A stretch of 48,686 nucleotides of DNA from contig NZ_MTAW01000018.1 in assembly GCF_002154725.1 (NCBI RefSeq), positions 1 to 48,686 on the forward strand, written 5' to 3'. Positions 19,650 to 31,397 of the stretch are shown here, one piece after another (positions within the stretch are counted from its first letter, which is position 1; every line of letters starts with the position of its first letter). The translations under genes were made by a program, and so were the position numbers. Origin of the DNA: Nostoc sp. 106C (GTDB lineage Bacteria; Cyanobacteriota; Cyanobacteriia; Cyanobacteriales; Nostocaceae). Below the pieces are notes generated by a model. That model saw nothing but the letters and a program-made list of their open reading frames with translations. It did no database searches and was not told the origin of the DNA.

Positions 19650-21173
19650 ATGGCAATTATTAGTGGAACTATCACCCCTGCTGACGACAAAATCTTAGCT
19701 GATGGGGCGAACGATACAATCGATGCTCTCGCAGGTAACGATACCGTTAATGGTGGCGCGGGAAACGACATCCTCATAGGCAATTTCGGCAACGATTCTC
19801 TATTAGGAGGACTTGGTAACGATTCCCTCGATGGTGGATTCAACAGAGACACCCTTGATGGTGGTGCGGGTAACGACACTCTTAACGGTGGCGATGACAA
19901 CGATACCCTTTCTGGTGGAACTGGAAACAATCTCGTTAATGGTGGTGCAGGTAACGATATTCTCATCGCTCAAAACGGAAACTTTCCAGGTGCAGGCGAT
20001 GTTGGCGATACCTTGATTGGCGGTGCAGGTAATGACGAGCTACGTGTTGAGGGAGCCTCAAATTATTTCTTGACTAATAATCAGCTGTTTGTGGGTAATT
20101 TAGCTCACAAGTTTTCTGAGATTGAGGATGTCAGGCTCACTGGTACTGCGGGTAATGACACGATTAATGCCTCTCAAGCTTTGTTGTCAGGGCGAACCTT
20201 TCTCTTTGGCGGTGATGGCAATGACACCATCACAGGTAGCCGTGGACTTGACCAGATTAACGGTGGTCGGGGTGATGACAGCATAGTAGGAGGTTCGGGA
20301 TTTAACTTTCTACGTGGTAATGATGGCAATGACACCCTAATCGGTGGAAATGACGGTAATAATTTCAATGGTGGCGCAGGGAATGACTTTGTCCAAGGCG
20401 GAACAGGAAACGATAGTTTTTCTGATAGTAACTTTGATGGAGCAGGGAATGACCAATACATCGGGGGAGCAGGCGATGATTTCTTGTTTATCCAAGGCGA
20501 TACTAACTTTGAGCTATTCTCATTTGTCAATGACCCAAACACAAGCACACTCAAAGGTGGTAAGTCTATAGGAGGCATACCAGATGGAACAGTCACAGGC
20601 ATTGATACCCTCAAAGGTATTGAAAGCGTCACAATTCAAGGAGGCGATAGCTTCAATATCATAGATGCTTCTAAAGCCAACCAAAACGTTACTCTGATTG
20701 CTGGCGGTGGTGGTGGCTCTATGAAAGGTGGTAGTGGTAACGATAGCCTATCAGGTTCATTTTCTGGCAATGACTCTCTCTCAGGAGGTGCAGGTAACGA
20801 TACCCTCACCGGAAATGGCGGCTTTAATACCGGAGAGGTGGATATTTTAATAGGAGGAAATGCCTCCGTAGGAGTTCAATCTGCTGATACGTTCCTCATA
20901 TTGGATGGCTATCGCCAAGCTGGTCATGCTGTTATCAGCGACTTTTCTATACAAGATGGGGACAAAATCCGTCTGCGTTTTCCTTTCCAAGGCTCTGCTA
21001 GCGATTTCACCTTCGTACAACAAAACTTCCCTAATACGAGTACGGGTACAAATTCCTCAGCTATCAAAGATACTGTTATCTTCTTTGGCTCGCCTGCTTC
21101 CAATGACATTATTGCGGTGGTTGAGGATGTTAGTCTCACTGCAACAAGTCCTGGTATCGAAATTTTTGGTTAA
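19650..21173 (+). CDS. RTX-type calcium-binding repeat protein
   Basis: A 507-residue acidic Gly/Asp/Asn-rich protein with many nonapeptide RTX repeats (GGAGNDTLNGGDDNDTL and similar) across most of its length. These form calcium-binding parallel beta-rolls after secretion. There is no N-terminal signal peptide, as expected for type I secretion. The last 100 residues (DTFLILDGYRQAGHAVISDF...) lack repeats and probably hold the secretion/folding region. ATG 19650 has an AGGAAA ribosome site. No enzymatic domain is seen, so a surface or matrix role is more likely than a toxin. Its upstream region shares an element with the adjacent lanthipeptide precursors. Confidence 0.8.
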   Translation: MAIISGTITPADDKILADGANDTIDALAGNDTVNGGAGNDILIGNFGNDSLLGGLGNDSLDGGFNRDTLDGGAGNDTLNGGDDNDTLSGGTGNNLVNGGAGNDILIAQNGNFPGAGDVGDTLIGGAGNDELRVEGASNYFLTNNQLFVGNLAHKFSEIEDVRLTGTAGNDTINASQALLSGRTFLFGGDGNDTITGSRGLDQINGGRGDDSIVGGSGFNFLRGNDGNDTLIGGNDGNNFNGGAGNDFVQGGTGNDSFSDSNFDGAGNDQYIGGAGDDFLFIQGDTNFELFSFVNDPNTSTLKGGKSIGGIPDGTVTGIDTLKGIESVTIQGGDSFNIIDASKANQNVTLIAGGGGGSMKGGSGNDSLSGSFSGNDSLSGGAGNDTLTGNGGFNTGEVDILIGGNASVGVQSADTFLILDGYRQAGHAVISDFSIQDGDKIRLRFPFQGSASDFTFVQQNFPNTSTGTNSSAIKDTVIFFGSPASNDIIAVVEDVSLTATSPGIEIFG

Positions 21174-21264: not shown

Positions 21265-21399
21265 TAGACTTCTTGCAAAAATGCTAATCAGCAAAAAAGG
21301 AACCACAGATGAACACCGATAAACACCGATATTTATCTGTGTTCATCTGTGTTTATCTGTGGTTTGATATTCAAAATTTTGACTTATGCAAGAGGTCTA
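21265..21399. mobile_element. MITE-like foldback element
   Basis: A 135-base element bounded by near-perfect inverted ends, TAGACTTCTTGCA and TGCAAGAGGTCTA. Inside, 21301-21363 forms a long palindrome built from ACAGATGAACACCGATAAAC and its complement (GTGTTCATCTGTGTTTATCT). It codes for nothing. A half copy lies beside the IS110 element at 31469-31516. Confidence 0.55.
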
Positions 21400-21731: not shown

Positions 21732-21992
21732 ATGATTCAGAACATCAAAGAACTGCTGCAAAATACTCAACTACAACAGCAAATTAAAGAAGCTGCCAAC
21801 TTTGCAGAAGCTGTCAAACTGATTACAACCGCAGGGGCACAAAAGGGCTACTCTTTCAGCCAAGAAAATATAGCTCAGGCAGCAAGCGGGTTAATGTTAG
21901 AAGAGCGCGAAATCTCAGAAGCTGATTTACTCGCAGTTGCTGGTGGGTTGCGGGCTTCTTCTATAACTAGAAGCATTTTGAGTTGTTGTTAA
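21732..21992 (+). CDS. Nif11-leader lanthipeptide precursor 1
   Basis: An 86-residue precursor with a 72-residue Nif11-type leader (MIQNIKELLQ start, DLLAVAGG end) and a 14-residue core, LRASSITRSILSCC. The double-glycine site fits the C39 peptidase exporter encoded at 27787. The core has Ser/Thr at positions 4, 5, 7, 9 and 12 and two adjacent Cys at the end, so up to two (methyl)lanthionine rings are possible. AGGA lies about 10 bases before the ATG. It is the first of five tandem precursors sharing leader sequence but not core sequence. Confidence 0.9.
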   Translation: MIQNIKELLQNTQLQQQIKEAANFAEAVKLITTAGAQKGYSFSQENIAQAASGLMLEEREISEADLLAVAGGLRASSITRSILSCC

Positions 21993-22078
21993 TCGAACTG
22001 TGCCAAGCGGCGTGGCGAAGCTGTATGGTTTTTCTATGCTATTGTCACGCCTTGGAAATGTGCTTATCCTAGCTCGAA

Positions 22079-22124
22079 TTTTTGGGAAATAATTAGTGTA
22101 ATAACTGCTATCTTTCCCAAAATT
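22079..22124. terminator. Inverted repeat between precursors 1 and 2
   Basis: TTTTGGGAAA (22080-22089) and TTTCCCAAAA (22113-22122) can pair across a 23-base loop. A GC-rich inverted pair (CCAAGCGGCGTGGC near 22001 and GTCACGCCTTGG near 22044) precedes it. These may terminate or attenuate the precursor-1 transcript, letting precursor and enzyme levels differ. There is no strong T-run, so terminator activity is unproven. Confidence 0.35.
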
Positions 22125-22152
22125 AACTAATCTTAAAAACAGGAATAAACTA

Positions 22153-22410
22153 ATGATTCAGAATATTAAAGAACTGTTGCAAAATGCTCAACTGCAACAG
22201 CAAGTAAAAGAAGCTTCTAACTTGGTAGAAGCCATCAAATTAATTACAAACGCTGGCACAAAAAAGGGATACTCTTTTACACAAGAGAGTATAGCTCAGG
22301 TAGTAAGCAAGCTCATGTTAGAGGAGCGCGAACTTTCGGAAGCTGACTTACTTTCTGTTGCTGGAGGCAAGAATAGTTTCACGGGGTTTGAGAGCTTTAT
22401 GTGGTGCTAG
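22153..22410 (+). CDS. Nif11-leader lanthipeptide precursor 2
   Basis: An 85-residue precursor. The 72-residue leader is very similar to precursor 1 and ends LLSVAGG; the 13-residue core is KNSFTGFESFMWC. Ser3, Thr5 and Ser9 with one C-terminal Cys allow a single ring plus dehydrated residues. Start context CAGGAATAAACTA-ATG is nearly identical to that of precursor 3. Confidence 0.9.
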   Translation: MIQNIKELLQNAQLQQQVKEASNLVEAIKLITNAGTKKGYSFTQESIAQVVSKLMLEERELSEADLLSVAGGKNSFTGFESFMWC

Positions 22411-22484
22411 TAAGCTTTTGATGGAGTTAGCTTCAATGCCAATAGATTCAGAACTCAAATAATCTCAAAAATAGGAATAAACTA

Positions 22485-22751
22485 ATGATTCAGAACATCA
22501 AAGAACTGCTGCAAAATGCTCAAATGCAACAGCAAATTAAAGAAGCTGCTAACTTAGCAGAAGCCATCAAACTGATTACAACCGCAGGCGCACAAAAGGG
22601 CTACTCTTTTACCCAAGAGATTGTAGCTCAAGTTGTCAGCAAACTAATGTTAGAGGGTCACGAACTTACAGAATCTGACTTACTCTCAATTGCTGGAGCA
22701 TTACCTCCTCCTTGTAATACGAAAATGAGGAATACTTCGTGTTGGATTTAG
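22485..22751 (+). CDS. Nif11-leader lanthipeptide precursor 3
   Basis: An 88-residue precursor with the shared 72-residue leader, here ending SIAGA (Gly-Ala instead of Gly-Gly), and a 16-residue core LPPPCNTKMRNTSCWI. Cys5 precedes all dehydratable residues, while Cys14 follows Thr7, Thr12 and Ser13. One ring could therefore run in the reverse (Cys N-terminal) direction, as known for some prochlorosins. Gly-Ala is a normal cleavage site for this leader class. Confidence 0.9.
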   Translation: MIQNIKELLQNAQMQQQIKEAANLAEAIKLITTAGAQKGYSFTQEIVAQVVSKLMLEGHELTESDLLSIAGALPPPCNTKMRNTSCWI

Positions 22752-22871
22752 CAGGATTTACTTTTTTAAATCCTGAACATAAATGAGTGAACTTTCTGTG
22801 AATGCGTCTGAGTTTGGATATTTTAACTGTCTGCAATCGAGATACATTAGCTGATACTTCACTAAATACCT

Positions 22872-22905
22872 GAGCTACTTGAATAATGTTTGATTTGAGT
22901 AGCTA
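22872..22905. promoter_or_regulatory. AGCTACT inverted repeat upstream of precursor 4
   Basis: AGCTACT (22873-22879) and AGTAGCT (22898-22904) flank an 18-base AT-rich spacer. The same arms recur before precursor 5 (23370-23398). It lies about 50 bases before the precursor-4 start, so it could be an operator or transcript hairpin. Confidence 0.35.
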
Positions 22906-22954
22906 TCAATTTAAACAAGAGAAATTGTCTAACTTCAATCAGGAGAATAAATTC

Positions 22955-23215
22955 ATGATTCAAAACATCAAAGAACTATTGCAAAATACTCAATTGCAAC
23001 AGCAAATTAAAGAAGCTGCCAATTTAGTAGAAGCCATTAAACTAATTACAACCGCAGGCGCACAAAAGGGCTACGCGTTTAGCCAAGAGAGTGTAGCTCA
23101 GGTAGTTGGTGGATTAATGTTAGAAAGCCATGAACTTACGGAATCGGACTTACTTATGGTTGCTGGTGGATTAATGCCTGATTGTAAATGCGGCTTGATT
23201 TATTGCACAGAATAA
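22955..23215 (+). CDS. Nif11-leader lanthipeptide precursor 4
   Basis: An 86-residue precursor starting at ATG 22955, chosen over the in-frame ATG 22886 because it aligns with the other leaders and has CAGGAG upstream. The leader ends LLMVAGG; the 14-residue core is LMPDCKCGLIYCTE. It has three Cys but only one hydroxylated residue (Thr13), after all Cys. A classical lanthionine pattern is hardly possible, making this core the odd one out. Confidence 0.88.
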   Translation: MIQNIKELLQNTQLQQQIKEAANLVEAIKLITTAGAQKGYAFSQESVAQVVGGLMLESHELTESDLLMVAGGLMPDCKCGLIYCTE

Positions 23216-23369
23216 CCTAGAAATCTCCAATCTTTTTCTTGAATATTATCTCCAAAGTGGCAAAATAAAAAACTTCTTTAAGTGAAGAAATGCTATGAAT
23301 TTGCCAAAATTAGGTAATTTCAATATTTCTTATCAAGACAGATTGGATAATGTATTTGAATAAAACTCT

Positions 23370-23398
23370 GAGCTACTTAAATATTTTTAAAGTAGCTC
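23370..23398. promoter_or_regulatory. GAGCTACTT inverted repeat upstream of precursor 5
   Basis: GAGCTACTT (23370-23378) and AAGTAGCTC (23390-23398) form a perfect 9-base inverted repeat with an 11-base AT loop, 27 bases before the precursor-5 start. It matches the arms upstream of precursor 4. Confidence 0.4.
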
Positions 23399-23425
23399 TC
23401 TAACTTCAAAAAGGAGAGTAAACTC

Positions 23426-23674
23426 ATGATTAATAGTATTGAAGAACTATTGCAAAATATCGAACTACAACAGCAAGTCAAAGAAGCTACCAACTTAGCA
23501 GAAACCACTAAACTCATTACAACAGCAGGTACTGAAAAAGGTTACTATTTGACCGAACAACAGGTAGCGCAAATAGCTAGCGAACTAATGTTAGAGAAGC
23601 TAGAACTTCGCGAGACTGACTTACTTACAGTTGCTGGCGCTTTTGGTTACACAAATAATAGATATTGTTTTTAG
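23426..23674 (+). CDS. Nif11-leader lanthipeptide precursor 5
   Basis: An 82-residue precursor. The leader (72 residues, ends LLTVAGA) is the most diverged of the five, starting MINSIEELLQ. The 10-residue core is FGYTNNRYCF, one of the shortest expected for a lanthipeptide, with a single Thr4-Cys9 pair giving one possible methyllanthionine ring. AAGGAGAG precedes the start. The LanM gene follows 154 bases downstream. Confidence 0.87.
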   Translation: MINSIEELLQNIELQQQVKEATNLAETTKLITTAGTEKGYYLTEQQVAQIASELMLEKLELRETDLLTVAGAFGYTNNRYCF

Positions 23675-23828
23675 TTTCTGTTTGAGTTGGGTTATTTTTG
23701 GGAATCAAAGTGAAGAGTGATATTGCTTTTAAATCTGGGGGAAAGTGTCTTTCCCCTACTTTACAAAATATTGGCGATAGAAAACCCTTCAATTCATTTA
23801 GTACTCCTCTATCCCTCAGTTTTACATT

Positions 23829-26800
23829 ATGTCTCGGATTTCGATGCCTATAACGGACTACGCTTACGCACCTCCAGTTAATTATACCAATGCAGATTTA
23901 GCCTCAATTGTTGCTAATGCCAGTTTCCTTTGGGAACGTCTCGATTCAGAGGGTTTTACTGTGGATGGAGAACAGGCTGAATCAGAAATTGAGCGTCGCT
24001 GCGATCGCTGGTGTCAAGTTGCAGCACAGGGTAACTTAGATACATTCCAAAAACGCTTACAGTGGGAAGGTTTGAATCTTGATGCTGTGCGTCCGATGTT
24101 GGGAACTGTGCGAATTACAGACAATCAGCCGTTGCCAGAATGGGCGCAAACCCTGCAACAAATCATGCAGACGGCGACAGAATTTATATCTGTATCTGGA
24201 TCATTTTTGCCAACCGATCCAGACAATCCGCTTCCTTTCGAGGATATTCTTTTACCTGCGATCGCAGTTGCCAGACAACAACTTCTGATTCGTCTGGGTT
24301 CTGAGCAACTCACGGAAGATAGCCTGCCTCTTTCTATGCTCACAGAAACCGCTTATCAAGCTTTAGAGCGTACTTTACTGCAACGACTCGTAGAACTTTG
24401 CACCAAGACACTAGACTTTGAATTCTCCCAGGTTCGTCCCTTTGGTCAGAATTTGCTCAATTTGCTAGGGCTAGAAACAGAAGACAGCGATCGCAAAACT
24501 CACTACACCCAGTTCGTTGAGCGACTGCTGCAAAGTGGATTGCTGACTTTTTTCCAGAAGTATCCAGTCCTCGGTCGATTAGTGGCAACAGCAGTCAGTT
24601 TCTGGGTTGAGTTCACGGCTGAATTCCTGCAACGATTGGCTGAGGATAGAGCCGAGATTCAGCGAGTTTTTGGCTCAACGATTGATATAGACAAAGTTGC
24701 ACAAATCCAAACCTCTCTTTCTGACCCACATAAGCGCGGCAGAAGCGTGATTTTGCTCACCTTTGAGTCTGGACTCAAACTCGTCTATAAGCCCAAGGAT
24801 TTAGGATTAGAAGTTGCTTTTAACGAATTTTTATCTTGGTGTAACCAACACAGCCAGCTTTTAGATTTCAAAATAATTCAGGTGCTTAACCGCAAGAGTT
24901 ATGGTTGGGTGGAATATGTTGAGCAGCAATCTTGCATTGATGAAGCCGCTGTCAAACGCTTTTATCAACGTGCTGGAATGCTGTTGTGCGTACTTTATGC
25001 TTTCAGGGGAACCGATTGCCATTGCGAAAACTTAATTGCTAGTGGCGAACATTTAGTGTTAATCGATATGGAAACCCTGCTGCATCATGAAGCCAATCTC
25101 ATTGACAATTCACCCTTTATTCAAGAGTTTGAGACAGCCGCCGCACAACGCCTCTGGGATTCGGTACTCCGCACTGGGATGTTACCTCGGTGGGATTTTA
25201 GCAGCGATCGCCGCATTGCTTATGATATTAGCGGGTTAGGCAGTATCGATTCAGAGCAAGCTCCCCGGAAATTACGTCGCTGGCAGGCAATTAACACTGA
25301 CAATATGCACCAACGCTATGAGTCTGTGACATTCCCTCCAGAGAAAAATTTGCCGCGCTTGGGTGAAGTTGCTTTATCTGCCAACGATTATCAGGTAGAA
25401 ATTGCTACTGGATTTGAGCAGATGTATCGTTTCTTGATGGTAAATCAGGATAGGCTTCTAGCTCCGGACAGCCCACTTGCTGCGATGCAAAATCAACAAG
25501 TCCGCTTTATCTTCCGCGCCACCCAGATTTACGGTACTATTCTCCAAAATGCGTGGGCACCCGATTACCTCAAAAATGGAGTGGACTATAGCATTGAACT
25601 GGATCGCCTCAGTTATGCTTTTCTAGTTGCTCAGGAAAAACCCCATGCTTGGCCGATCCTGAGTGCGGAACTGCAAGCTATGCAGCAGTTAGATATTCCT
25701 TTCTTTACCGCTAGTGCCGCTAGCGATGAGTTGAGCGTAGCTAAGAATCAAACTATTCGGCAGTACTTTAAGCAACCTAGTTATCAACAAGTTCTAATGC
25801 AATTACAAGCCCTGGATGAAACTGACTTAGCCCGACAAGTTGCGATCGTTCAAGGCTCTTACTATGCCAAGGTAGCGCAAACCGCAAGTAAAGAAAGCGA
25901 ACAATGGAATGTTGAGTCCTTACCATTGCTGAACTCACAACAGTTGATTGCGGAAGCCAGAGCGATCGCGTCTGAACTCGAAGCCAGAGCCATTCCCGAC
26001 CCCGATGGTAGCGTTAACTGGATTGGCTTAGTTTATATACCGGAAGCAGAACGATTTCAACTACAGGTGTTAAACGACAGTCTGTATGACGGACGCAGTG
26101 GAATAGCGTTGTTTCTCGCCGCCCTCTATCAGGTATGCGGTGAACCGTGTTTCCGTAATCTGGCATTGCAGACATTACAATCGTTACGTAAACAGATTCA
26201 AACTCTCGATCCAGAATCTCAGCAGCGAAAAGCCCGTCTCAGTGGAATTGGGGGTACAACAGGTTTAGGTTCTACAATTTATACCTTCGTCAAGATTAGC
26301 CAATTTCTAGGCGATGAAACCCTCTTGCAAGATGCTCAAGTTTTGTGCGATTGGATGACACCGGAATTAATTGCAGCAGATAAATTTTTAGATATTATTA
26401 GCGGTGCGGCTGGAGCCATATTAGGGTTGTTGTCCCTTTATGGAGTCACAAAACAAGCAACCGTATTGGAAAAAGCGATCGCTTGCGGACAGCATTTACT
26501 TACTCACCGAGTCAGCCATGAAGGTCGGCCTAAAGCCTGGCTTACCATTGGTGAAACACCCTTTACTGGCTTCTCTCACGGAGCCGCTGGCATTTCCTAT
26601 GCCCTGCTACAACTCTACGCTGTCACCGAAGACCGCAACTATTTAGAAGCCGCCTTAGAAGGGATTGAGTATGAACGCAGCGTTTTTTCTGAATCCCATG
26701 CCAATTGGCCCGACTTTCGTGGATTAGCACAAACAGGACAGCCTGTGTTTCCCGTCCAGTGGTGTCATGGTGCAGCCGGAATTGGGTTAGCTCGCTTAGG

Positions 26801-27158
26801 TAGTTTCAAGATTGCGAACACACCTGACATGGAACGCGAGGTTGAAATCGCGCTGCAAACTACTCAGCGCTATGCATTGCAAGCCATCGATCATCTATGC
26901 TGTGGGAATATGGGTCGGGTTGAGGTGCTGTTAGTTGGTGGTCAACGCTACTCCCGTCCCGATTGGTATGAAAGTGCTTTCCAGAATGCGACGAATATTA
27001 TAGCTAAAGCCAAGCGTACCGGAGCTTATAAACTGTTCCCCAACTTACCTAATTCTGTATTTAATCCTGGCTTCTTCCCCGGTACAGCTGGAATTGGTTA
27101 TCAACTTCTTCGTCTAGCACAACCAGAACAATTACCTTCAGTTTTGCTGTGGGAGTGA
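23829..27158 (+). CDS. lanM: Class II lanthipeptide synthetase LanM, CCG type
   Basis: A 1109-residue bifunctional enzyme. The N-terminal dehydratase (DUF4135) domain has the kinase-like LVYKPKDL block near residue 317, TDCHCENLIA near 394 and LIDMETLLHH near 410, used to phosphorylate and eliminate Ser/Thr. The C-terminal LanC-like cyclase has GFSHGAAGIS (near 914), WCHGAAGIG (Cys near 978) and LCCGNMG (near 1023). The CCG motif, rather than the usual CHG, gives three Cys zinc ligands as in ProcM, a group known for substrate tolerance. This fits five divergent cores next door. ATG 23829 lacks a clear Shine-Dalgarno sequence. No second LanM is seen. Confidence 0.93.
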   Translation: MSRISMPITDYAYAPPVNYTNADLASIVANASFLWERLDSEGFTVDGEQAESEIERRCDRWCQVAAQGNLDTFQKRLQWEGLNLDAVRPMLGTVRITDNQPLPEWAQTLQQIMQTATEFISVSGSFLPTDPDNPLPFEDILLPAIAVARQQLLIRLGSEQLTEDSLPLSMLTETAYQALERTLLQRLVELCTKTLDFEFSQVRPFGQNLLNLLGLETEDSDRKTHYTQFVERLLQSGLLTFFQKYPVLGRLVATAVSFWVEFTAEFLQRLAEDRAEIQRVFGSTIDIDKVAQIQTSLSDPHKRGRSVILLTFESGLKLVYKPKDLGLEVAFNEFLSWCNQHSQLLDFKIIQVLNRKSYGWVEYVEQQSCIDEAAVKRFYQRAGMLLCVLYAFRGTDCHCENLIASGEHLVLIDMETLLHHEANLIDNSPFIQEFETAAAQRLWDSVLRTGMLPRWDFSSDRRIAYDISGLGSIDSEQAPRKLRRWQAINTDNMHQRYESVTFPPEKNLPRLGEVALSANDYQVEIATGFEQMYRFLMVNQDRLLAPDSPLAAMQNQQVRFIFRATQIYGTILQNAWAPDYLKNGVDYSIELDRLSYAFLVAQEKPHAWPILSAELQAMQQLDIPFFTASAASDELSVAKNQTIRQYFKQPSYQQVLMQLQALDETDLARQVAIVQGSYYAKVAQTASKESEQWNVESLPLLNSQQLIAEARAIASELEARAIPDPDGSVNWIGLVYIPEAERFQLQVLNDSLYDGRSGIALFLAALYQVCGEPCFRNLALQTLQSLRKQIQTLDPESQQRKARLSGIGGTTGLGSTIYTFVKISQFLGDETLLQDAQVLCDWMTPELIAADKFLDIISGAAGAILGLLSLYGVTKQATVLEKAIACGQHLLTHRVSHEGRPKAWLTIGETPFTGFSHGAAGISYALLQLYAVTEDRNYLEAALEGIEYERSVFSESHANWPDFRGLAQTGQPVFPVQWCHGAAGIGLARLGSFKIANTPDMEREVEIALQTTQRYALQAIDHLCCGNMGRVEVLLVGGQRYSRPDWYESAFQNATNIIAKAKRTGAYKLFPNLPNSVFNPGFFPGTAGIGYQLLRLAQPEQLPSVLLWE

Positions 27159-27194
27159 GGGCTGTTTGGGGGTGTGGGGAGTGTGGGGGGACAA

Positions 27195-27240
27195 GGAAGA
27201 CAAATGACAAATGACCAATGACAAATGACAAATGACAAAT
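27195..27240. repeat. AATGACA short tandem repeats
   Basis: Heptamers of the ACAAATG type (ACAAATGACAAATGACCAATG and on) run directly into the start codon of the next gene. Similar text (GTCATTGGTCATTTGTCATT) occurs near 17790 and 5030. It creates several overlapping ATGs in different frames before the mini-HlyD gene. Confidence 0.55.
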
Positions 27241-27783
27241 CCACCTCGCTCAATCTTTCGTAAAGATGCTGTTCGTCGTTATTTGGAAGGTAGGGAAAAG
27301 TCTATCTTGCCGCGACTGGTTTCTCCACGCACGTTTATTTATCTATGGTTTCTGTTGGGGTTGCTAGGGATGAGTAGTATCATCGCTTGGTTTACCAAGG
27401 TGCCAATGTATGCTTCTGGTAAAGCTATCATTGTTCGTTCGAGCAATCAAAGAATTGTAGTAGCCACCTTTTTTGAACCTCAACATCTTTCAAGCTTGCG
27501 AAAAACCAAAAAATTATTTTTAAATTTTGCTGATCGGGGCGCTCGCACTGCTGCCATCATTACTGTTCAACCAGAGATTTTTAGCCCCGACACTATCCAA
27601 AAACGATTTGCGATCGCACAAATTACGCGGCCCAGTGCAATAGCGATCGCACAATTAGAGCCGATAGACAAAAACTTGCCTGCTAGTGCATATCTGGGTA
27701 GTGTCGGTCATGCACAAGCGGAAGTTGGATCGCAACGCCTCATATCTTTATTACCACTAATTGGGCAATTCTTTGAGCAATAG
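27232..27783 (+). CDS. Mini HlyD-like membrane-fusion protein
   Basis: A 183-residue protein. The N-terminal cytoplasmic stretch (FRKDAVRRYLEGREKSILPR) and one membrane helix (YLWFLLGLLGMSSIIAWF) resemble the start of HlyD-type adaptors in bacteriocin export systems. The segment after it (YASGKAIIVRSSNQRIVVATF) resembles a barrel-sandwich half. The long coiled coil of normal HlyD proteins (about 400 aa) is missing. It sits between lanM and the exporter gene with only 3 bases to the latter, so it is very likely an exporter subunit. The start lies within heptamer repeats and lacks a ribosome site. Confidence 0.7.
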   Translation: MTNPPRSIFRKDAVRRYLEGREKSILPRLVSPRTFIYLWFLLGLLGMSSIIAWFTKVPMYASGKAIIVRSSNQRIVVATFFEPQHLSSLRKTKKLFLNFADRGARTAAIITVQPEIFSPDTIQKRFAIAQITRPSAIAIAQLEPIDKNLPASAYLGSVGHAQAEVGSQRLISLLPLIGQFFEQ

Positions 27784-27786
27784 ACC

Positions 27787-30042
27787 ATGAATGTTCTCAA
27801 GAAAGTACAACGAATAAATTTACAGCTAGAAGCGATCGCTTGGGGACTGAAATATCTCATCTCGCCTACTCGTTGGCTGAAGTTTTTGCAGCATTACCAA
27901 CGGCGAGTTCCGATTAGATTACAACTCAATGCTGTTGAATGTGGTGCAGCTTGTCTAGCAATGATTCTTAGTTACTATGGCAGGCAGACTCGCGTTAATG
28001 AATGTCGGGAGTTTATGGGCATTGGTCGAGATGGTGTGACTGCACAAACCATTGCCCAAGCTGCCCGTGCTTATGGATTGCGTGTCAAAGCATACTCTCT
28101 AGAAGAACTTGCGGATTTTAAATATATTCATTTACCAGCAATTGTTTATTGGAACTTCGAGCATTTTTTAGTTGTAGAACGCTGGTCAAAAAAGTATGTT
28201 GAAATTGTCGATCCCACTAGTGGACGATACCGATTAACTCTCGATCAATTTAATGAGGGCTTTACAGGGGTGGTATTGACTTTCGAGCCTGGAGTACAAT
28301 TCCAACGCCGCCGCAAAAAAGCTTCATTATCCTGGTCTGACTACTTGCTGCAATCCATAGGCCAGACCCCAGGCTTGCTGTTGCAAATCCTCAGCACTTC
28401 TGTGCTTTTACAAATTTTAGGGCTAGCGCTACCCATCTTGACCAAAGTAGTTGTAGATCGCATCTTGCCGCTTCAGATTGCTGATGTCATGCCAATTCTC
28501 GGATTGGGGATGCTGATTCTCGTTCTAGCGCAAATGGTGACAAGTTATTTACGCGCAGCACTGCTAATTTATTTGCAAGCACGCATTGATACCCGTTTAA
28601 TGCTGGGTTTCTTTGAGCATTTACTGACACTTCCGTTTCGCTTTTTTGAGCAACGTACAGTGGGCGACCTGCTGATGCGTCTTGGTAGTAATGCCATGAT
28701 TCGAGAAACGCTTACTAGTCAGACGCTATCAATCATCTTAGATGGTATGTTTGTGTTGGGATACCTAGTATTACTGTTCGTTCAAGAACCAACTTTTGGA
28801 AGCGCTGTTTTGCTTGTCGGACTGCTTCAGGTAATACTTTTGCTGGGCACGACCAGGCGAGTTCATGACTTAATGCAACGCGATTTGTTAGCACAAGCAG
28901 AATCTCAAAGTTACTTGGTTGAAGCATTAACTGGAATCCTGACTCTGAAGGCCTGTGGCAGTGAAGACCGTGCTTTTGATTACTGGTCTAATTTATTTTT
29001 TAAGCAATTGAATGTCTCGCTGCAACGCAATCATTTAGGGGCATTGGTTGATACAGTAATGGTTTCGCTGCGTACATTCTCTCCGTTGCTGCTGTTATGG
29101 GTAGGAGCGATGTATGTATTAAATGGAACTATGAGCTTAGGGACAATGTTGGCATTAAATGCGATCGCAGCGTCCTTTTTAATGCCTCTGTCCTCGCTAG
29201 TATCAAACGGTCAGCGCCTACAATTGGTAGGCGCACATCTTGAGCGACTAACTGATGTTCTCACAGCTGAGTCAGAGCAGAAGTTACAGAAAGTTCAAAC
29301 AGCACCACAAATCACAGGTCGAATAGAATTAAACCAGGTCAGTTTTCATTACGATTTAAATGCCCCACCAGTCTTACACGATATTTCACTCACAATCGAA
29401 CCCGGACAGAAAATAGCTTTAGTTGGTCGCTCCGGATCGGGAAAAAGTACACTAGCTAAACTTTTACTTGGACTTTACTTACCAACAGCAGGCGAAATTC
29501 TTTATGATGGAATACCCTTGTCAGCATTAAACTGGCGCACATTACGCAATCAATTTGGTGTAGTACTGCAAGAGCCTTTCCTGTTTAGCGGTTCAATTCG
29601 GCAAAATATTAGCGTTAACAATCCTAGCCTGGCTCTAGAGAAAATCATGGCAGCAGCAAAGCTGGCCGCTATCCACGATGATATTATGCAAATGCCTATG
29701 GGTTACGAAACTAGGCTGGCAGAAGGTGGTAGTGGTTTATCGGGAGGACAACGCCAACGTTTAGCACTGGCGCGTGCTTTAGCTCACCAACCTGCTATTC
29801 TCTTATTAGATGAAGCAACTAGCCATCTTGATGTTGTCACTGAGAGTTTGATTGAGCAGAATTTGCATCATCTTTCATGTACACGGATTGCGATCGCTCA
29901 TCGATTGAGTACTATCCGCAATGCAGATAAAATTTTAGTCCTCGATCAAGGGACAATTGTTGAACAAGGTTCCCATGAAGAACTTCTCAGCTTAGATGGA
30001 TATTATGCTTCACTAATAAACGGTCACAAACTTCGTTTTTGA
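27787..30042 (+). CDS. Peptidase-containing ABC transporter (C39) for lanthipeptides
   Basis: A 751-residue LanT/PCAT protein. The N-terminal C39 protease has Gln46, Cys52 (AVECGAACLAMIL), His126 (NFEHFLVVE) and Asp142 (VDPTSG), the full catalytic set. Six membrane segments span about residues 195-450. The ATPase has Walker A VGRSGSGKST, signature LSGGQRQRLALARA and Walker B ILLLDEATSHLD. It should cut after the Gly-Gly/Gly-Ala of the five leaders and export the modified cores. It is the last gene of the cluster; an inverted repeat (CTCAATT 30044, AATTGAG 30071) just after the stop may help termination. Confidence 0.92.
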   Translation: MNVLKKVQRINLQLEAIAWGLKYLISPTRWLKFLQHYQRRVPIRLQLNAVECGAACLAMILSYYGRQTRVNECREFMGIGRDGVTAQTIAQAARAYGLRVKAYSLEELADFKYIHLPAIVYWNFEHFLVVERWSKKYVEIVDPTSGRYRLTLDQFNEGFTGVVLTFEPGVQFQRRRKKASLSWSDYLLQSIGQTPGLLLQILSTSVLLQILGLALPILTKVVVDRILPLQIADVMPILGLGMLILVLAQMVTSYLRAALLIYLQARIDTRLMLGFFEHLLTLPFRFFEQRTVGDLLMRLGSNAMIRETLTSQTLSIILDGMFVLGYLVLLFVQEPTFGSAVLLVGLLQVILLLGTTRRVHDLMQRDLLAQAESQSYLVEALTGILTLKACGSEDRAFDYWSNLFFKQLNVSLQRNHLGALVDTVMVSLRTFSPLLLLWVGAMYVLNGTMSLGTMLALNAIAASFLMPLSSLVSNGQRLQLVGAHLERLTDVLTAESEQKLQKVQTAPQITGRIELNQVSFHYDLNAPPVLHDISLTIEPGQKIALVGRSGSGKSTLAKLLLGLYLPTAGEILYDGIPLSALNWRTLRNQFGVVLQEPFLFSGSIRQNISVNNPSLALEKIMAAAKLAAIHDDIMQMPMGYETRLAEGGSGLSGGQRQRLALARALAHQPAILLLDEATSHLDVVTESLIEQNLHHLSCTRIAIAHRLSTIRNADKILVLDQGTIVEQGSHEELLSLDGYYASLINGHKLRF

Positions 30043-30151: not shown

Positions 30152-31397
30152 TTAGGCGGGAGTTGAGGGGGTGGGTTGTGGCTCAAGAGAAACCTGGTAA
30201 CCAAGTTGCTCTAAACGTTTAGTCAGTCGGCGAGAAATACGTTCCTTGTCTTGCTGATCAAAGTAATTAGCTGCCAATTCCTGATAAGTAGTTTTGTGTT
30301 TAAGTAAGTGATAGGCAATGACTAAAATGGTATGAGCAACAGCAACTGATGCCTTTTTGCTACCCTGACGTGCAACCAGCCGTCGGTAGTGCGTTCCCAA
30401 GTAAGTTGTACGTGTACGACCGGCAGCTTTGGCAGCTTCAACAAGTCCAGCACGTAACCAACAACTACCCTTACGAGTTTTACCAGAGTAAGGTTTGCCA
30501 GCACTTTCATGATTACCAGGACATAGTCCAGCCCAAGAAGCTAAATGTTTATGAGTAGGAAAGCGGCTCATATCCGCACCGATTTCTGCCCTGAGCAGTT
30601 GTGCCGTCTTACGCTTGATACCTGGGATGGTACATAATCGCTCCAAATCCTGCTCAAAAGGGTGCATTCGTACCTCAATTTCAGCACTGCATTGTTGGAG
30701 TGCTTCATCTAAAAAATCAATGTGGGCTAGCATCTGTGCCAACATGAAACGTTGCTGGGGTTGAACTCGACCAGCCAGTGCTTGCTGCAATTGTGAGAGT
30801 TTCAAGCGTAAGCGTCCTTTCGCCAACTCTGCCATTGCTTGTGGGTCAGAGTTACCATCAACGATTTGTGCGAGAATGGCTCGACCTGATACACCCATGA
30901 TATCAGTTGCTACTGAGGAAAGTTTGATGTTGGCTCCTTCTAAAACGGCGTTGCACTCGATTCACTTCAGCGGCACGCTGCTGAACCAGTGAAATGCGAT
31001 AACGCACTAACTCTCGTAATTCACGCATTGACCGAGAGGGAATAAAGCTGGAGCGCAACAAACCATGTCGGAGTAAATCAGCTATCCATTCAGCATCTTG
31101 TACATCAGTTTTACGACCAGGTACATTTTTGATATGGTGGGCATTGACTACCAAAAGCTCTAACCCTCCTTCCAATAAGTTATAGATTGGCTTCCAGTAT
31201 GAGCCTGTGCTTTCCATAGCTACATGAGTACATTGTGCTGTTACCAACCAATCCAGTAGTTGCAATAACTCTGGGGTAGTTGTACCAAAACTTCTTATCT
31301 GTTTATTAATTTTCCCAGCGTTACTGATGCTTAAACAAGCAGTGACGCTCTTTTTATGAACATCCAAACCACAACAGCGCTCATAAACAACCTGCAT
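30152..31397 (-). pseudogene. IS110-family transposase, frameshifted
   Basis: Two minus-strand frames, 31397-30903 (about 164 aa) and 30898-30152 (about 248 aa), together make one full-length IS110 DEDD transposase. The first has GLDVHKKSVTACL, MESTGSYWKPIYNLLE and GRKTDVQDAEWIADLL (RuvC-like catalytic part). The second has LCTIPGIKRKTAQLLRAEIG and LASWAGLCPGNHESAGK (Transposase_20 domain). Removing one base near 30947-30950 restores VNRVQRVLEGANIKLSSVAT-type sequence across the join, so a single-base insertion explains the split. Natural inactivation and sequencing error cannot be told apart. IS110 elements lack terminal inverted repeats and use a bridge RNA from their non-coding end; the ends were not defined here. 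Confidence 0.85.

Follow-up and report, generated by a model that had tools for sequence, protein, structure and literature searches.

A predicted class II lanthipeptide operon of Nostoc sp. 106C with five unlike cores, several of them shared by position with other genomes, and a short adaptor that looks like an HlyD protein without its middle

We analyzed a 48,686-nucleotide stretch of DNA from the cyanobacterium Nostoc sp. 106C (NZ_MTAW01000018.1; the whole stretch is called the window below and, as contig C214, is one of the 240 contigs that make up the 8.66 Mb genome), which holds a predicted class II lanthipeptide operon at positions 21732-30042. Five tandem precursor genes, P1 to P5, are followed by genes for a class II lanthionine synthetase (LanM), a 183-aa adaptor and an ATP-binding cassette (ABC) exporter with a C39 peptidase domain, all on the forward strand and all with intact frames. 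The precursor open reading frames lie at 21732..21992 (P1), 22153..22410 (P2), 22485..22751 (P3), 22955..23215 (P4) and 23426..23674 (P5), and each of the five ATG codons is preceded by its own AGGA/GAGG-type ribosome-binding site; the start of P4 was set at 22955, after AGGAG, while the listed frame begins at 22886. A matching five-gene array is present in Nostoc sp. T09, which excludes an assembly artefact.

Each precursor comprises a 72-aa leader and a short core, which are separated by a double-Gly-type site after residue 72 that reads GG in P1, P2 and P4 and GA in P3 and P5. The cores are LRASSITRSILSCC (P1, 14 aa), KNSFTGFESFMWC (P2, 13 aa), LPPPCNTKMRNTSCWI (P3, 16 aa), LMPDCKCGLIYCTE (P4, 14 aa) and FGYTNNRYCF (P5, 10 aa). 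These coordinates and core lengths agree with an initial annotation of the stretch, which had also described the leaders as Nif11-type and almost unchanged. The leader length of 72 residues stands, but "almost unchanged" is too strong because pairwise leader identity is 61-83% (mean 72%; P5 is the outlier). The Nif11 assignment holds as a remote relationship: against the 32.3-bit cut-off of TIGR03798, the model for Nif11-type leaders, P1 scores 32.3 bits (E 8.6e-8) and is at the cut-off, and P2 to P5 fall below it with 31.4 (E 1.7e-7), 21.6 (E 2e-4), 21.8 (E 1.7e-4, queried without the first Met) and 18.9 bits (E 1.3e-3). None of the five precursors reaches the cut-off of the Pfam Nif11 model, and they are not listed when the genome is searched with PF07862. 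A profile built from the five, searched against the 8.66 Mb genome, matched these five alone; the next match (E 0.023) is a frame that adjoins a second LanM gene of the CCG type described below, on contig C210.

Within the window, the cores are 7-31% identical to one another (mean 19% over 10 pairs). The earlier statement that they share no sequence was nearly right, with one exception in the 10 pairs: in a shuffle test, P1-P2 alone passed the 0.05 level (p = 0.007, uncorrected). Between genomes, several cores at the same position are shared. Nostoc sp. T09, of the same genus, carries counterparts of all five precursors in an unchanged arrangement (identity to the window 88% for LanM, 78% for the adaptor and 92% for the exporter). 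In genome G235, which belongs to another family of the same taxonomic order, four precursors precede a LanM that is 76% identical to that of the window. The counterparts in T09 and G235, respectively, are LRNSAITGLSFYNCCW and LRGSAITGLSFYDCCW for P1, RQSFTSWESFINLCY and LRNSCTIFTSWDSIFSVLC for P2, LPPPCNTRMRNTVCEI and LQPISGGLCKTINSGTRC for P3, and LMPDCKCGLIYCTV and RMPDCKCGLVYCSE for P4; the P5 core is FGYTNNRYCF in T09 too, and none was seen in G235. For the 13 same-position pairs the mean identity is 62% in the core and 75% in the leader, compared with 20% and 70% for the 78 other pairs, and only 2 of 20,000 random position assignments reached the observed identity sum.

The slots differ in how closely they are held. 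The P3 core is 81% identical to its T09 counterpart, the P4 core is 93% identical to that of T09 and 79% to that of G235 (71-93% across three genomes of two families), and the P5 core is identical in the two genomes that have it. Conservation of the core equals or exceeds that of the leader for P4 in two of three pairs and for P5 in its one pair; in the remaining pairs it is mostly the leader that is better conserved. The P1 cores of T09 and G235 are 88% identical and those of the window and T09 only 50%, thus indicating that this slot changed in the lineage of the window or was exchanged. Ratios of non-synonymous to synonymous substitution rates (dN/dS) between the window and T09 were 0.18 for the leaders, 0.31 for the pooled cores, 0.12 for LanM, 0.29 for the adaptor and 0.09 for the exporter; pooling the P3-P5 cores gave 0.17, from small counts that include 6 non-synonymous changes. 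The P4 core has three Cys residues and a single Thr after all of them, which is kept as Thr, Thr and Ser in the window, T09 and G235. With the Thr in this position a ring from an upstream Cys would be needed, and both ring directions have been reported for NpuM of Nostoc punctiforme (PMC13060382). The calculated [M+H]+ values of the unmodified cores are 1509.788 (P1), 1583.666 (P2), 1860.892 (P3), 1588.688 (P4) and 1284.547 (P5); loss of one water (18.011), as predicted for P4 and P5, would give 1570.677 and 1266.536. A search of open-licence papers with three core strings and one core fragment returned no matching paper.

LanM (23829..27158, +; 1109 aa) contains the dehydratase domain DUF4135 and the cyclase domain LANC_like and scores 1057.1 bits against TIGR03897 (cut-off 304). 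Its D.H, YKPK, D.H.EN and IDxET motifs, which we take to be the catalytic motifs of the dehydratase, align with those of CylM and LicM2. Residues C979, C1024 and C1025 supply the zinc ligands, in line with the three-Cys (CCG) site on which the initial annotation had based a place in the ProcM group. A FastTree phylogeny of 58 LanM sequences from the fetched loci, rooted on a CHG enzyme, places the window's enzyme inside that group, which unites 47 CCG sequences (40 from filamentous or other cyanobacteria and 7 from picocyanobacteria) and three with altered motifs at a support of 0.998 (0.977 for the cyclase part). None of the seven CHG enzymes falls within the group, and a fourth altered-motif sequence lies outside it. 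A LanM outside the CCG clade, which the initial annotation had named as a refutation, is therefore not what the tree shows. The enzyme is 30% identical to that of L132, one of the seven picocyanobacterial CCG LanMs. In four LanMs (L139, L142, L143 and L145) the zinc-site letters depart from both CCG and CHG, which could reflect lost sites, with possible loss of cyclase activity, or misalignment. The host genome encodes four LanMs, three of the CCG type and one of the CHG type; in its second CCG LanM cluster a protein of about 360 aa with no Pfam match lies between LanM and a full-length HlyD (L057 13711-14868).

Searches with the precursor profile gave matches at E ≤ 1e-20 in 10 of the 388 genomes from the order and at E ≤ 1e-12 in 4 of the 388 from the class, the genome of the window itself included. 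We tabulated the 26 loci at which the profile matched, so that CCG LanM loci with no such match are left out, as is L089, which overlaps L092; at 24 of them the sequence retrieved includes a CCG LanM frame, and at L129 and L130 it does not. One precursor was found at 10 of these 24 loci and several at 14, although contig ends can hide some, and at L048 a second precursor copy is cut off in this way. Among the 14 multi-precursor loci, the cores are near-copies (0.57-1.00) in eight and unlike (at most 0.38) in six, and these six all belong to one LanM group of seven (support 0.999; 0.803 for the cyclase part). The three-Cys site had been offered as a mark of substrate tolerance, but it does not serve as one by itself: an equation of CCG with many substrates was rejected on the 10 single-precursor loci and on NpuM, which has a three-Cys site and one substrate (PMC13060382).

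G235 carries a locus with two LanMs (L089/L092, G235:C2 at about 64,000-78,000), in which the CCG LanM and its Nif11-like precursors adjoin a CHG-type LanM with mersacidin/lichenicidin-type precursors, three of whose four scanned candidates match TIGR03898 (E 2e-19 to 1e-18). One short adaptor frame and one C39 exporter follow, apparently common to both sets, and a similar pair is seen in G278 (L086). In the window and T09 the CCG set stands directly before the adaptor and exporter.

The exporter (27787..30042, +; 751 aa) consists of Peptidase_C39, ABC_membrane and ABC_tran domains and matches the bacteriocin ABC transporters 4ry2/8vp3 over its whole length (E 1e-118). Its C39 domain (Pfam E = 1.1e-35) retains Q46, C52, H126 and D142, which we take to be the active site, and the intact Gln-Cys-His-Asp site of the initial annotation is thereby borne out. 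Against TIGR03796 the protein scores 681.7 bits, below the cut-off of 853.3. No second ABC-sized frame adjoins it among the open reading frames of the window; the rest of the genome was not scanned for TIGR03797.

Between LanM and the exporter, at 27232..27783 (+), lies the short HlyD-type adaptor of 183 aa. It had been named a mini adaptor, correctly so, and it is more unusual than that name conveys. Pfam and NCBIfam give no match to the protein at E ≤ 1, and neither it nor its T09 counterpart matches TIGR03794 directly. AlphaFold2, run on the window and T09 sequences, gave a low-confidence model (pLDDT, predicted local distance difference test, 39.8) with one hydrophobic helix near residues 32-56. 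In HlyD-type adaptors the lipoyl and coiled-coil parts lie in the middle of the chain. When six short adaptors were aligned with full-length HlyDs by hhalign, the first 72 residues matched at E 2e-10 and the rest weakly, at E 0.07. After 20 more short adaptors had been added, the C-terminal half aligned with the last 130 residues of full-length HlyDs at E 1e-39, with the N-terminus as a second alignment at E 0.1; the strength of the C-terminal match comes from the 25 pooled short relatives and not from the window protein alone. TIGR03794 matched six of eight short adaptors scanned (L158 and L128 had no match): L154, L157 and L167 match at positions 291-420 of the model and in one more stretch (E 8e-45 to 1e-46), and L160, L163 and L169 match best at the N-terminus. 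Since both the N-terminal and C-terminal parts align to HlyDs or to TIGR03794, it is the middle that is missing, and the protein looks like an HlyD-type adaptor without its lipoyl and hairpin parts (domains as set out in PMC4446572), with homology that runs through intermediates.

Short adaptors that keep the C-terminal half occur in six genomes, namely that of the window, T09, G278, G294, G217 and G591. The combined profile of the window and T09 adaptors found matches in 12 of 388 genomes of the order: the longer short form in five, the N-terminal part in G235 and G076, full-length HlyDs (482-499 aa) in four and a broken frame in one. Still shorter frames of 88-90 aa, reduced to the N-terminal and membrane part, are present in G235, G076 and G127 (L089 8131-8400, L090 7226-7489 and L091 12362-12625), and those of L090 and L091 are of equal length in two genomes. 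When 242 class-wide genomes were searched with a profile of six short adaptors, 28 gave a match, that of the window among them. Several matches are weak (to E 2.5e-4), and L158 matches in its N-terminal part only; the best open frame, measured from stop to stop, was 184-260 aa long in 21 of the 28 genomes and 482-523 aa in seven.

Short HlyD-type adaptor frames also adjoin C39-ABC exporters in other cyanobacteria (L153-L172). Twenty neighbourhoods from 19 of the 21 genomes were inspected, some of which stop at contig ends: 16 contain a C39-ABC-like gene, 14 a second ABC gene and one a LanM, and four contain neither ABC nor LanM. The exporter pair of L154, the one pair tested against the models, is over the TIGR03796 and TIGR03797 cut-offs. 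An adaptor with no hairpin seems not to be special to lanthipeptides. Given the 16 of 20 neighbourhoods with a C39-ABC-like gene, the short adaptor appears to be a wider adaptor form for such exporters in cyanobacteria, which the lineage of the window pairs with a single, diverged C39-ABC. Elsewhere, the host genome encodes two full-length TIGR03794 adaptors as well as two frames with outer-membrane channel (OEP) domains, from which parts could be borrowed. The open-licence literature, covered mainly through titles and the first lines of abstracts, yielded no description of such an exporter with a hairpin-less adaptor.

The operon is flanked by genes of other kinds. Upstream of the precursors and on the same strand lies a gene for a 507-aa RTX calcium-repeat protein (19650-21173), and T09 also has one upstream (L005 2401-3924). 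An inverted repeat at 21301-21364, with two 31-base arms that are 87% complementary and 2 bases apart, lies between the RTX gene and the precursor array. Directly 3' of the exporter, an IS110-type transposase is present in two frames (30152-31397, -); inspection by eye did not find it among the T09 frames listed after the exporter.

We consider it probable that this locus is a class II lanthipeptide operon that yields about five different short peptides, most of which are kept by selection as individual products. In the pathway that we propose, one CCG-type LanM would bind the shared Nif11-like leader, dehydrate Ser and Thr residues in each of the unrelated cores and close the thioether rings. 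The C39 domain of the exporter would then cut after GG or GA, and the exporter would move the cores over the inner membrane together with a shortened HlyD-type adaptor that has no coiled-coil hairpin. The P3, P4 and P5 cores would be held, with P1 and P2 changing faster in the lineage of the window. The sequence itself shows the intact parts, the sharing of same-position cores with other genomes, the clade of LanM and an adaptor without its middle; modification of every core, cleavage, export and the joint use of the products are steps that we infer. Several observations weigh against this reading. At greater distances the cores turn over. Among the cores read from profile-matched genomes, those in common with the window occur in T09 and G235 only; G591, which has the same architecture and a LanM of 74% identity, has three other cores, G278 has two, and one G217 locus has two. 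The P1 and P2 cores of the window are only 50% and 47% identical to those of T09, and their pooled dN/dS is 0.42. In G235 the third core is 33% like P3, and P5 is missing. With three Cys and one Thr, the P4 core can form at most one thioether ring. Furthermore, five other Nif11 frames over the Pfam cut-off are present in the genome, distant and with another leader type, and are potential further substrates.

The initial annotation had favored a prochlorosin-like combinatorial logic, and the corresponding alternative is a natural library made by a promiscuous enzyme, with diversity of the cores rather than any single product as the target of selection. Part of that logic survives, as one LanM, and one from the CCG clade, stands with several precursors whose leaders are far more alike than their cores (61-83% against 7-31% identity); other cores stand in G591, G278 and G217 of the same LanM clade, and P1 and P2 change quickly in the window. 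It is weakened by the arrangement of the precursors, which are not spread over the genome and have no further relative with this leader in it, and by the agreement of same-position cores with T09 and partly with G235. In these three genomes P1 and P2 vary, and distant loci differ; the P3-P5 cores are 81-100% identical to those of T09, P4 reaches 71-93% over two families, and the dN/dS of the pooled P3-P5 cores is 0.17. With most of these peptides retained in two related genomes, the set resembles a fixed blend more than a random library; a maintained set probably fits these comparisons better than a hypervariable library, which we regard as rather unlikely.

The similarity of P1 and P2 might instead point to a two-component lantibiotic, in which these two peptides act together and the others are accessory. 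The two genes are adjacent, they are the sole pair of the window to exceed the shuffles, and the T09 pair does so as well (p 0.0035, likewise uncorrected), but P3-P4 of T09 also falls below 0.05 (p 0.026), P1-P2 of G235 fails (p 0.26), one LanM would serve all five, and the most conserved cores are P4 and P5 rather than P1 and P2, which makes this explanation very improbable. A decaying cluster, with the truncated adaptor and surplus precursors as remnants, is hardly more attractive and is if anything less credible still. In its favor, the adaptor is short and its dN/dS (0.29) exceeds those of LanM and the exporter, N-terminal-only frames of 88-90 aa exist in G235, G076 and G127, and transposase frames lie directly downstream; set against this, the frames are intact with dN/dS below 1, and the adaptor form with the C-terminal half recurs in six genomes, and 21 of 242 genomes of the class have an open frame of 184-260 aa that matches its profile.

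If the five peptides are indeed a maintained set, the cores that stay constant across species beside changing slots identify the products to purify and test first, that is, P4 and P5, then P3, which a hypervariable library could not offer. The adaptor without a hairpin, a form that also accompanies other C39-type exporters, is relevant to the route by which double-Gly peptides get out of a cell that has two membranes. In an ordinary adaptor it is the lipoyl and hairpin parts that reach the outer-membrane channel. A broader proposal, possible but on balance doubtful, is that a cyanobacterial lineage of peptidase-ABC exporters works with adaptors devoid of these parts, so that mature lanthipeptides would be released into the periplasm or pass through an undescribed coupling to the outer membrane, and that the five cores would form a maintained blend of several components, acting as a signal or an antibiotic, with a separate job for each slot. 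For the prochlorosins the role is stated as unknown (PMC10783134, PMC11251773).

Multi-precursor LanM clusters of cyanobacteria have been known since 2010-2011 (PMC2887384, PMC3140520), and in the proposed model the present operon would work as they do. The group IV bacteriocin clusters of Wang et al. (2011, PMC3140520) comprise LanM, in some cases with HlyD and C39-ABC, and N11P/NHLP precursors, that is, the same kinds of genes, with a mean of 3.81 precursors per cluster and diverse cores; in the part of that paper available HlyD is named with no length and core diversity is stressed, whereas the window has an adaptor that looks to be without its middle and cores that are shared between genomes. 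Nif11-type class II precursor families of cyanobacteria in which the leaders are conserved and the cores are not, family II 26 among them, are alike in the Nif11 leader, the host group and the placement of LanM beside the precursors (PMC7268733). The prochlorosins and ProcM share with the window the Nif11-type leader, GG cleavage, a CCG LanM and unrelated cores (PMC10783134, PMC11251773); they differ in that the window has only five, clustered precursors with same-position cores alike in other genomes, a contrast that rests on the published "striking core sequence diversity" (PMC11251773). The nostolysamide system NpuA/NpuM/NpuT of Nostoc punctiforme likewise combines a filamentous cyanobacterium, a Nif11-family leader, a three-Cys LanM of the ProcM clade and a C39 exporter, but it has an acyltransferase and a single precursor, whose core is 25 aa long (PMC13060382), whereas the window has five cores of 10-16 aa, and a scan of nine neighbours found no acyltransferase. 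The NHLP export system TIGR03794/03796/03797 links a C39-ABC exporter and an HlyD-type adaptor to NHLP/Nif11 precursors (Haft et al. 2010, PMC2887384), from which the window departs with its exporter below the TIGR03796 cut-off (681.7 < 853.3), the lack of a visible adjoining second ABC gene and an adaptor devoid of the middle of the profile. BesA, an adaptor of a Borrelia resistance-nodulation-division (RND) pump, also has no coiled-coil hairpin (PMC4446572); it belongs to an RND rather than an ABC system. To these known systems the present locus adds cores that are kept by position and an adaptor that appears to have no hairpin.

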